Positions 3,924 to 7,156 of a stretch of DNA of 64,000 bases are shown here, one piece after another. The stretch lies in contig NZ_JAOQMX010000001.1 in assembly GCF_025960985.1 (NCBI RefSeq), forward strand, positions 62,001 to 126,000, read 5' to 3'. Source of the stretch: Flavobacterium psychraerolatum (lineage in GTDB: Bacteria; Bacteroidota; Bacteroidia; Flavobacteriales; Flavobacteriaceae). Every line of letters begins with the position of its first letter. Positions within the stretch are counted from its first letter, which is position 1. The notes below the pieces were generated by a model. That model was not told the DNA's origin, searched no databases, and worked only from the letters and a program-made list of their open reading frames with translations. The translations under genes and the position numbers were made by a program.

Positions 3924-3949
3924 AAACTTTCATTTATTTTTGAAAGTTT
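3924..3949. promoter_or_regulatory. Inverted repeat, probable operator 1 of the GbsR-type regulator
   Basis: Perfect inverted repeat AAACTTTCA - 8 bases - TGAAAGTTT, centred about 88 bases before the regulator start. The same 9-base arms with the same 8-base spacing recur at 4548-4573 before the next operon. The right arm overlaps the TTG of the promoter -33 element, so occupancy should block transcription; negative autoregulation is the simple inference. Confidence 0.7.
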
Positions 3950-3970
3950 AAAAACTTTTACATACATTTG
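3940..3970 (+). promoter_or_regulatory. Bacteroidetes-type promoter of the GbsR-type regulator
   Basis: TTG at 3940-3942, 20 bases, then TACATTTG at 3963-3970, matching the Bacteroidetes sigma consensus (TTG / TAnnTTTG). The predicted transcript start is near 3977, leaving a leader of about 48 bases before the ATG at 4025. Confidence 0.65.
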
Positions 3971-4024
3971 TACTATGACAATGAGCAATTATCCGATTTG
4001 CATTAAAAATAACAAAAGCGTCTA

Positions 4025-4528
4025 ATGAAATTCAAAGAAGCAAAAAATAAGTTTGTACAAACCTGGGGAGCACTAGGATCGCAATGGGGAATTAATAAAA
4101 CCATGGCGCAAATTCACGCGCTTTTGATGGTTTCAGCAGAACCGGTTTCTATGGAAGATGTGATGGAAGAATTGCAAATTTCCCGTGGTAATGCTAGTAT
4201 GAACTTACGCGCTTTGATGGATTGGGGAATTGTTTACAAAGAATACAAAGCGGGAGAACGTAGAGAGTTTTTTACCGCTGAAAAAGACCTAGACGAATTA
4301 GCCGTAAAAATAGCTAGAGAACGCAGTAAAAGAGAAATCAAACCTGCTTTGAAAGTTTTAAAAGAAGTTTCCTCTATTAGTGCGAATCAAACAGCAGAAG
4401 AAAAACATTTTGTAGATCAAACAACCAAATTGTATGATTTCGTTTTAAAAGCCGATAATGTTTTAGACAAAATCACCGAATACAAAGACAATTGGTTGAC
4501 TAAGCTCGTTGTGAAATTCATGAAGTAA
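4025..4528 (+). CDS. GbsR/MarR-type winged-helix transcriptional regulator
   Basis: 167 residues, the usual length for the GbsR subgroup of MarR-like regulators. A winged helix-turn-helix spans roughly residues 25-85, with the recognition region around MEELQISRGNASMNLRALM and a wing near YKAGERREFF. The C-terminal third is helical and probably dimerises. A cytoplasmic DNA-binding repressor is the likely role. Its own promoter carries a palindrome repeated exactly before the adjacent four-gene operon, so these genes are its most likely targets. The ligand is unknown; GbsR of Bacillus senses choline but the downstream genes here give no sign of osmoprotectant metabolism. Confidence 0.85.
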   Translation: MKFKEAKNKFVQTWGALGSQWGINKTMAQIHALLMVSAEPVSMEDVMEELQISRGNASMNLRALMDWGIVYKEYKAGERREFFTAEKDLDELAVKIARERSKREIKPALKVLKEVSSISANQTAEEKHFVDQTTKLYDFVLKADNVLDKITEYKDNWLTKLVVKFMK

Positions 4529-4547
4529 AATCAAAAAAATTTAATCA

Positions 4548-4573
4548 AAACTTTCATTTTTTTCTGAAAGTTT
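4548..4573. promoter_or_regulatory. Inverted repeat, probable operator 2 before the DCC/TIGR01777 operon
   Basis: Perfect copy of the arms seen at 3924-3949 (AAACTTTCA - 8 bases - TGAAAGTTT); only the spacer differs. It lies between the regulator stop (4528) and the operon start (4590), with 16 bases to the ATG. I see no clear TAnnTTTG box here, so the operon may have a weak promoter under the palindrome or be read through from the regulator gene. Confidence 0.7.
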
Positions 4574-4589
4574 AAAAATAAAAAGAATT

Positions 4590-4952
4590 ATGAAAATACT
4601 GAATTTTTTAAACCTAGCGATTGTTCTAACTGTAGTAATAACTGGAATATTAAGTCCTTTCATCAAAGATTGCGGACTTATTGTTTTCTTCACTGGACTA
4701 TTTATAATGCCAGCCTATCAGCTATTATCTGGACTCATTTGGTTGACAAACGAAACTAATAACAAAGATGTGACTAATTATTTCAAAGGTGTTTTATGCT
4801 ATTTCTTTTTAATGTTCGCCATTTCATTATTACACAACTCTTTTATAAATCAATCAGTAATTGAAAGCATAATGATGTGTGTAGGAGTTTCTATACCTAT
4901 ACTACTCGCTTTGTATTTTACTTTCATACTAAACAAAAACGCAAGAAGATGA
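4590..4952 (+). CDS. Small integral membrane protein, unknown function
   Basis: 120 residues with four hydrophobic stretches (about 5-22, 28-50, 68-88 and 93-113), so probably a four-helix inner-membrane protein. I do not recognise the family. It is the first gene of the operon behind operator 2, and its TGA overlaps the ATG of the DCC protein gene (ATGA), which implies translational coupling. Its role is unknown; membership of this operon suggests it acts with the DCC and TIGR01777 proteins. Confidence 0.7.
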   Translation: MKILNFLNLAIVLTVVITGILSPFIKDCGLIVFFTGLFIMPAYQLLSGLIWLTNETNNKDVTNYFKGVLCYFFLMFAISLLHNSFINQSVIESIMMCVGVSIPILLALYFTFILNKNARR

Positions 4953-5770
4953 AAACCCTAGCCGACCACACCCTTCTTTACGACGAAGAATGCCCAATGT
5001 GCAACCTCTACACTGCAGGTTTTATCAAAGCAAACATGTTAGATAATCAAGGTAGAAAACCATTTGTAAATATTACAACTGAAGAAGAAAACTATATTGA
5101 TATACAAAGAGCCAAAAATGAAATAGCCTTAGTTGACACCCAAAACAAAAGAGTTTACTACGGTATTGAAAGTCTATTAAAAGTAATAGGGAATTCTTTT
5201 CCATGGATGGAGAAACTGGGCAATTGGAAACCTATAAATTACTTTTTGAAAAAGCTGTACAAATTCATCTCTTACAACCGAAAAGTAATAGTACCTAGTA
5301 AACTGAAAATAGAACACAAGATAAATTGCATTCCAGATTTTAATATAAAATATCGTTTGTTTTATATTGCATTTGCAACTTTATTTACCGCATTGGTTTT
5401 ATTTCAATACGCAGAATTGATTGTCTTTTTACCAAAAGCTACTTTCGTTAGAGAAATCCTTCTAGCAACTGGACAAATAGGTTTTCAAGCGCTTTTTATT
5501 CAAAAATTAGACAAACATAAACAATTGAATTACATTGGGAATTTAGTCACCGTTTCTATAATAGGAAGTTTACTTTTGATACCGATACTATTCTTAAACT
5601 GCTATTTTAATTTAAATGAATATTTTATTATAGCTTGGTTTGGATTAATCGTAAACTTTATGATTTACGAACATTATAGAAGAATCAGTTTACTCGAATT
5701 ACCCAAATATCTAACTCTAACATGGATTTTGTATCGAATACTAGCTTTGGCAATTATCTTAAATTTTTAA
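4949..5770 (+). CDS. DCC (DUF393) thioredoxin-fold protein with C-terminal membrane domain
   Basis: 273 residues from the ATG at 4949, which overlaps the preceding stop; an upstream in-frame ATG at 4877 lies inside the previous gene and is unlikely. The N-terminus has the DCC-family signature YDEECPMC (Cys15 and Cys18), the CxxC of a predicted thiol-disulfide oxidoreductase. After about residue 130 the protein becomes membrane-embedded, with four or so hydrophobic segments (FYIAFATLFTALVLFQYAEL and others). It lies in an operon with a TIGR01777 epimerase and an SRPBCC protein. The substrate is not known. Confidence 0.75.
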   Translation: MKTLADHTLLYDEECPMCNLYTAGFIKANMLDNQGRKPFVNITTEEENYIDIQRAKNEIALVDTQNKRVYYGIESLLKVIGNSFPWMEKLGNWKPINYFLKKLYKFISYNRKVIVPSKLKIEHKINCIPDFNIKYRLFYIAFATLFTALVLFQYAELIVFLPKATFVREILLATGQIGFQALFIQKLDKHKQLNYIGNLVTVSIIGSLLLIPILFLNCYFNLNEYFIIAWFGLIVNFMIYEHYRRISLLELPKYLTLTWILYRILALAIILNF

Positions 5771-5780
5771 TTTTAACATC

Positions 5781-6689
5781 ATGAAAAAACTAATTATAGC
5801 AGCAGGAACAGGATTTTTAGGTGAAGTTGTAGTGAATCATTTCGAAAATAAATTTGAAGAAATCGTCATTCTTACACGAGGACAAAACAGCAGAACCGGT
5901 AAAATAAAATTGGTCAATTGGGATGCCAAAACTTTATCTGGTTGGGAAAAAGAATTAGAAAACGCAGATGTACTAATCAATTTGGCGGGCAAATCTGTGG
6001 ATTGTCGCTATACCGAAAAGAATAAAAAAGAAATATTACTTTCTCGTATACAAAGTACCAAAGTGCTTAACCAGGCCGTACTTGCTTGTACAAATCCACC
6101 AAAACACTGGTTGAACTCATCAACCTCAACCATCTACCGTTTTTCATTAGACAAACAAATGAGCGAGGAAAATGGAGAAATTGGCAATGATTTCTCTATG
6201 AATGTAGCGCAATCTTGGGAGAAATCATTTTTTAAAACTGCAACACCTAATACCTTAAAAACAGCCTTGCGTACCTCAATAGTTTTGGGTAAAAATGGTG
6301 GTGCTTTTATACCGTTAAAACGATTAACACAATTAGGACTGGGAGGTAAACAGGGGAAAGGAAACCAATTCATCAGTTGGATTCATGCCGAAGATTTTGC
6401 TAGAGCCATTGATTTTATTATCGAAAGACAAATGACAGGCGTTGTAAACATCGTTTCACCTCAACCGATTTCAAACCAAGATTTCATGGTAACTTTGAGA
6501 AAACAATTGAACGTTTTCATCGGAATACCAACACCTGAGTTTATTTTAAAAATTGGAGCAAAAATCATTGGAACCGAAACCGAATTGGTTTTAAAAAGCA
6601 GAAATGTGATTCCAAATCGACTTTTAGAAAACGGATTTGTATTCGAATACAAAACTTTAGAAACTGCCTTAAAAAATCTAACAAAATGA
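5781..6689 (+). CDS. TIGR01777-family NAD(P)-dependent epimerase/reductase (SDR)
   Basis: 302 residues, normal for the TIGR01777 (SDR39U1-like) extended short-chain dehydrogenases. The nucleotide-binding glycine motif G9-T-G11-F-L-G14 follows the first strand, and the family segments LINLAGKSVDCRY (near residues 70-82) and SRIQSTKVL are present. Family members are predicted NAD(P)-binding oxidoreductases of undetermined substrate, often found with SRPBCC genes. The next gene overlaps by four bases (ATGA), so the pair is probably translated together. Cytoplasmic. Confidence 0.88.
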   Translation: MKKLIIAAGTGFLGEVVVNHFENKFEEIVILTRGQNSRTGKIKLVNWDAKTLSGWEKELENADVLINLAGKSVDCRYTEKNKKEILLSRIQSTKVLNQAVLACTNPPKHWLNSSTSTIYRFSLDKQMSEENGEIGNDFSMNVAQSWEKSFFKTATPNTLKTALRTSIVLGKNGGAFIPLKRLTQLGLGGKQGKGNQFISWIHAEDFARAIDFIIERQMTGVVNIVSPQPISNQDFMVTLRKQLNVFIGIPTPEFILKIGAKIIGTETELVLKSRNVIPNRLLENGFVFEYKTLETALKNLTK

Positions 6690-7156
6690 CAACGATACAT
6701 TTAACAACCGTAATTAAGGCACCAATATACATCGTTTTTGATCATGCTCGTAATATTGATACGCACCAACAATCTGCAAGTAAAACTAGTGAGGTTGCCA
6801 TAGCAGGAACAACACACGGATTGATCAATAAAGGAGAAACCGTAACTTGGAGAGGTAAACATTTTGGCTTCTTCCTACAGCATCAAAGCATTATATCGCA
6901 AATGGAGCTGTACTCCTATTTTGTAGACGAACAATTAAAAGGTCATTTCAAATCCTTCAAGCACCAACATTTCTTTGAAGAAATAGATGGACAAACGATT
7001 ATGAAAGATGTGATGGAATACGAAACTCCGTTTGGGATTTTCGGAAAATTGTTTGACAAAATGCTATTGAAAGATCATCTCAGCCAGTTTTTGATTGAAA
7101 GGAATAAAATAGTAAAAAAACTGTCCGAACAAGATACAAAATCAAAATTACCCTAG
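6686..7156 (+). CDS. SRPBCC-family (START-like) ligand-binding protein
   Basis: 156 residues resembling the SRPBCC/cell-division-inhibitor-like proteins that often sit beside TIGR01777 epimerases. Typical features are the opening strand with VIKAPIYIVFDHARNIDTHQQS, the central strand motif FKSFKHQHFFEE and the end segment MKDVMEYETPFGIFGKLFD leading into the C-terminal helix. The fold makes a deep hydrophobic cavity for a small lipophilic ligand. It is the last gene of the operon and its stop overlaps the stop of the convergent histidine kinase by four bases. The cell-division label common in databases is not supported by anything here. Confidence 0.8.
   Translation: MTTIHLTTVIKAPIYIVFDHARNIDTHQQSASKTSEVAIAGTTHGLINKGETVTWRGKHFGFFLQHQSIISQMELYSYFVDEQLKGHFKSFKHQHFFEEIDGQTIMKDVMEYETPFGIFGKLFDKMLLKDHLSQFLIERNKIVKKLSEQDTKSKLP

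Follow-up and report, generated by a model that had tools for sequence, protein, structure and literature searches.

Paired palindromes around a GbsR-type regulator gene and a candidate self-repressed membrane operon in Bacteroidia

Two copies of one palindrome with the core TTTCA-N8-TGAAA flank the gene of a GbsR/MarR-type regulator (gbsR) in Flavobacterium psychraerolatum. We found that the paired sites are kept with gbsR across the class Bacteroidia, which makes them likely control sites of this regulator that tie gbsR to the adjoining operon of mostly uncharacterised membrane- and lipid-type genes, whose composition differs between species. Judging from the sequences, we lean towards the view that GbsR acts as a repressor at two places in its own locus, by autorepression and by a roadblock ahead of a perhaps lipid-related operon that a ligand would switch on. 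More tentatively, the locus may represent a class-wide Bacteroidia GbsR regulon that had not been assigned before, in which a leaderless, self-repressed regulator and a roadblock operator inside the operon would govern exchangeable membrane-lipid genes of fixed order.

The palindromes and their link to gbsR

The whole stretch of DNA that was analysed (64 kb) is referred to as the window. It holds the following features of the gbsR control region:

3924..3949, no strand: candidate operator site 1, AAACTTTCA-TTTATTTT-TGAAAGTTT, in the gbsR promoter
3940..3942, + strand: -33 TTG of the gbsR promoter, inside site 1 (TTG there in 106/111 loci)
3963..3970, + strand: -7 box TACATTTG of the gbsR promoter (from sequence; consensus TAHHTTTG; 107 loci)
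3975..4025, + strand: predicted transcription start (3975) and 16-codon leaderless upstream ORF MTMSNYPICIKNNKSV (from sequence)
4025..4528, + strand: gbsR, GbsR/MarR-type winged-helix regulator, 167 aa (sequence and fold)
4548..4573, no strand: candidate operator site 2, AAACTTTCA-TTTTTTTC-TGAAAGTTT, in the gap between the gbsR stop and the operon

A sequence-only reading of the window had reported that AAACTTTCA-N8-TGAAAGTTT occurs exactly twice in it, and both 26-bp sites proved to be exact and correctly placed. With up to 3 mismatches allowed, the window has no match besides these two (0.23 expected from shuffles), and the core has 2 copies only in the 64-kb window. Genome-wide checks were made as pattern searches, which found 2 exact copies in the 4.24-Mb genome and, with 1 mismatch allowed, nothing beyond sites 1 and 2. 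The next best match (C2:61969, 2 mismatches) was rejected as a third member of the regulon; it is a terminator-like hairpin adjoining a tRNA-like gene. A chance origin of the palindromes was rejected on the window shuffles, the genome search and the counts in flanking DNA, the core being found 160 times between -400 and +900 of gbsR, compared with 5 occurrences in 1.14 Mb of flanks.

The same reading had proposed a small self-regulated regulon and a search for the palindrome at homologous loci of relatives, a check that the proposal withstood. Both sites flank gbsR in 80/80 Flavobacterium-type loci, which were collected by a scan of public genomes, and both are present in 108 of 110 distinct GbsR genes when other genera and families are included. 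For 60 loci of other Bacteroidia, which by their group codes lie outside the order of the source organism, an exact-core search located the core ahead of gbsR in 54 cases and between gbsR and the operon in 40, and site 1 lies at -44 to -47 from the start in 43 of the 60. Within the genus a protein search detected gbsR orthologues in 16 of 36 other genomes. All 17 gbsR-containing genomes among the 37 of the genus carry the site, whereas 19 of the 20 genomes lacking gbsR are also without it, the exception being a single match with one mismatch (17/17 versus 1/20, Fisher 1e-9 with relatedness ignored). A third site at up to 1 mismatch is absent from all 17 gbsR-containing genomes, which supports the small regulon. 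In two genomes without gbsR the order M3 peptidase - DUF2071 - SRPBCC - cl3 - gcvP is intact, and gbsR and both palindromes are gone. The palindromes go with the regulator, not with the operon genes. At the level of sequence, the sites and their strict link to gbsR are established.

Identical arms with different spacers had been read as a sign of selection on the arms. Across 110 distinct loci the spacers proved not to be free to vary either: they are T/A-rich and site-specific, with T as the last spacer base at site 1 in 94% of the loci, completing the -33 TTG, and C at site 2 in 87%. The arms vary more at their outer positions than in the 5-bp core, and the C/G beside the core can swap. The spacer of site 1 has 7 bases in one locus (L050), and two loci (L055 and L124) contain an additional palindrome copy within the operon. 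L055 is a contig filed as a Limnohabitans MAG that carries a Flavobacterium-type gbsR locus (92% GbsR identity) and is probably mis-binned.

The assignment of the regulator to the GbsR/MarR type was borne out by sequence and fold. It matches MJ223 (1KU9) with a phmmer E of 7e-17, and its AF2 model (pLDDT 81) has 5JBR and 1KU9 as best Foldseek matches (E about 1e-8). Among 167 GbsR proteins the helix ISRGNxxMNxR hardly varies, and the A/T-rich inverted-repeat operator, a trait of the GbsR family within the MarR superfamily, can be recognised in 108/110 loci. Choline is unlikely to be the ligand, because the score against NCBIfam CudC (53.9 bits) is below the cut-off of 218 and the linker is without aromatic residues in Flavobacterium. 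At linker positions 86-104, which were defined without a direct alignment to B. subtilis GbsR, 83 of 83 proteins of the Flavobacterium set have 0 aromatic residues and most other Bacteroidia proteins have 1. No osmolyte transport or synthesis genes were found among the nameable operon genes, many operon genes being unnamed.

Promoter overlap, the gap behind gbsR and a possible roadblock

The promoter of gbsR was located with the TAHHTTTG consensus and the transcription-start rule of PMC6847099. TAHHTTTG lies 18-21 bp past the TTG of site 1 in 107 loci; TATTTTTG inside site 1 was not taken as a -7 box in this count. With gene starts taken from the alignment, the predicted transcription start is the A of the gbsR ATG in 80/107 loci, i.e. 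the gbsR mRNA would be exactly leaderless there. The window locus is an exception to this pattern and has a 50-nt leader holding a small ORF, MTMSNYPICIKNNKSV, whose stop shares one base with the gbsR ATG. L051, L078, L084, L085, L086 and L088 likewise have a short ORF ahead of gbsR, MTMSIYAICI or a variant of it, which begins at the predicted transcription start. The position of site 1 on the -33 TTG of this sigmaA promoter points to autorepression of gbsR.

Site 2 lies downstream of the sole recognisable promoter, whose transcription start is predicted from sequence, mostly 13-26 nt past the gbsR stop and mostly 16-20 nt ahead of the next ATG. A sigmaA promoter at site 2 was rejected, as 107/110 loci have no -7 box TAHHTTTG between -150 and +120 of the gbsR stop; this lack of a recognisable promoter and the promoter overlap of site 1 are plain from the sequences. 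The gap between gbsR and the next gene is shorter than 30 nt in 9 of 15 loci without site 2 compared to 0 of 40 loci with it, a difference that is partly trivial because site 2 itself takes up room, and in several loci without site 2 the next gene overlaps or abuts gbsR. The missing promoter at site 2 and the abutting next gene where the site is absent favour one transcript with a block inside it. We infer from this analysis that gbsR and the operon are co-transcribed and that site 2, which is probably an operator within the operon and not one at a promoter, would serve as a roadblock of the kind published for Bacillus GbsR (PMC7396694). In some other genera a terminator-like hairpin lies between gbsR and site 2 (6 loci in 4 genomes); such hairpins are ill-suited to simple read-through and keep a separate promoter conceivable. 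A longer gap between gbsR and site 2 (about 97 nt) with a conserved ACTATTCAATGAGACCAATAAAAAACAATAA was observed in L050, L051, L053, L056, L070, L077 and L083.

In the mechanism that we favour, a GbsR-type dimer would bind the TTTCA-N8-TGAAA palindromes. At site 1 it would cover the -33 element of the gbsR promoter, a sigmaA promoter, and thereby repress its own gene. RNA polymerase starting at the gbsR promoter would run through gbsR toward the operon and would be halted by GbsR on site 2, just past the gbsR stop codon, so that the operon could be repressed more strictly than gbsR. A ligand, probably not choline, would free GbsR and turn the operon on, and the products, membrane-associated enzymes and small membrane proteins, would most likely modify or protect membrane lipids. 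Binding, repression, co-transcription, roadblock, ligand and lipid function are all inferred parts of this scheme.

Several other explanations have to be weighed. Site 2 might be a classical operator over a promoter of the operon's own that uses a different sigma factor or has a degenerate -7 box, gbsR and the operon then giving separate transcripts. The terminator-like hairpins in four genomes, the spacing of mostly 16-20 nt to the next ATG and a conserved A/T-only stretch directly upstream of site 2 would fit such a promoter, but TAHHTTTG is absent near site 2 in 107/110 loci and the next gene overlaps or abuts gbsR in several loci without the site, and we regard this arrangement as unlikely, if worth keeping in view. 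The spacing to the ATG is also the weak side of the roadblock explanation, as it would also fit a promoter that went unrecognised or a function at the RNA level. That the palindromes act as RNA, as attenuator, terminator or translation-control hairpins, appears very improbable to us. The site 2 transcript can form a 9-bp stem with a U-rich loop; however, site 1 has the same sequence and lies upstream of the predicted transcription start, hence is not transcribed, the sites vanish with gbsR while the operon genes remain, and an Rfam search returned no family above its cut-off.

Some MarR-type proteins activate transcription, and site 2 is without a visible promoter to repress, which would suit a GbsR that activates, or both activates and represses, from the two sites. 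This is nevertheless improbable, given that site 1 covers the -33 TTG and that repression is the mode of action of the characterised GbsR-type proteins in PMC6207618, PMC7396694 and PMC11837568. Least probable of all is a different regulator binding the palindromes, with gene position as the only link to gbsR. Binding by GbsR is deduced from sequence, which gives this idea some room, yet the genome has no sites elsewhere, presence and absence of the sites track gbsR across genomes, and the operator is conserved throughout the class together with the recognition helix.

A variable operon behind a conserved regulator

The genes following site 2 in the window are:

4590..4952, + strand: small four-helix membrane protein, 120 aa, family m1 (model)
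4949..5770, + strand: DCC thiol-redox protein with hydrophobic C-terminal part, 273 aa (Pfam PF04134, 2.6e-9)
5781..6689, + strand: TIGR01777 NAD-dependent epimerase-like protein, 302 aa (NCBIfam TIGR01777, 9e-81)
6686..7156, + strand: SRPBCC-like protein, 156 aa (Pfam PF03364, 0.0086, below cut-off)

The four-gene operon described by the sequence-only reading was found in the window, where the genes from 4590 to 7156 overlap or nearly touch, but its make-up is the version of this species only. In 81 loci we counted 59 gene strings, some of them cut by contig ends, and the gene order is almost fixed, so that the operon can be described as a mosaic. Its families comprise small membrane proteins, paired membrane proteins (PP, one of them DUF4149-like), DCC, TIGR01777, DUF2071, SRPBCC and DUF4345-like proteins (the DUF4149, DUF4345 and SRPBCC matches being below Pfam cut-offs), and in some loci fatty-acid desaturases or CMAS-like methyltransferases. 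The SRPBCC-like family is conserved in 59 loci, and operon gene 3 reaches 271.6 bits against TIGR01777, above the NCBIfam cut-off of 207. For the small membrane protein a confident four-helix model (pLDDT 92) was obtained, and a fold match in the PDB was not found. No photolyase or crt genes were seen among the genes named in gbsR operons. Because the families include membrane proteins and, in some loci, desaturases or CMAS-like methyltransferases, our guess is that the operon has a role in membrane-lipid modification.

On a tree of gcvP, a linked marker with many weak branches, we counted 17 changes for PP, 18 for DUF2071 and 13 for DCC. In 66 complete Flavobacterium loci PP and DCC occur together in 3 and alone in 34 and 21, respectively. 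Mutual exclusivity of the two, although strong in the raw counts (Fisher 6e-8), was rejected, as a comparison of independent pairs on the linked gcvP tree gave no significance (3.6 pairs opposite and 0.2 same, of 7). TIGR01777 and DUF4345-like genes are found together in 0 and alone in 47 and 11 of these 66 loci, and here too the independent pairs of the gcvP tree show no significant exclusion. In L155-L172, which belong to many other genera, the region between the operon and gcvP encodes an ECF sigma factor together with a small protein of anti-sigma-like type.

Relation to known GbsR-type systems

A survey of the GbsR family in 2018 stated for Bacteroidetes that 'no consistent picture emerges' from gene neighbourhoods (PMC6207618), and our literature search for GbsR with Flavobacterium or Bacteroidota found no paper in the library covered. 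The operator provides such a picture: it defines the target and suggests that the adjoining operon is the regulon, and it makes ligand and function testable in laboratory strains, for example of Flavobacterium johnsoniae. The locus may be a case of one repressor using promoter blocking and a roadblock side by side. It also offers a case of a predicted leaderless repressor mRNA in a group with few leaderless mRNAs (5.5% in F. psychrophilum, PMC9723704).

The other TIGR01777 and SRPBCC genes of the same genome lie in a light/carotenoid cluster on contig C11 (L244, G000:C11:62.4-70 kb). Their products are only 28-29% identical to those of the gbsR operon, and the cluster has a MerR-type regulator together with crt and photolyase genes (named from proteins). 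CioR of Chromobacterium is a GbsR-type regulator that heads and represses its own cytochrome bd operon (PMC11837568), and CydE of Alishewanella, as cited in that paper, is a GbsR-type repressor heading its own cytochrome bd operon. Such a target is not among the named genes of the operons described here.

The resemblance to GbsR of Bacillus subtilis, the repressor of gbsAB and opuB, and to OpcR extends to the winged-helix MarR fold, with 5JBR and MJ223/1KU9 as closest solved relatives, and to A/T-rich inverted-repeat operators, OpcR blocking the -35 region and GbsR acting as a roadblock downstream of the transcription start (PMC7396694). The Flavobacterium proteins differ in that their linker has no aromatic cage (residues 93-101 in OpuAR), and the operon is of a membrane type without osmolyte genes among those nameable. 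The operator, TTTCA-N8-TGAAA, is also a different one and, unlike in Bacillus, one motif occupies both positions in a single locus.
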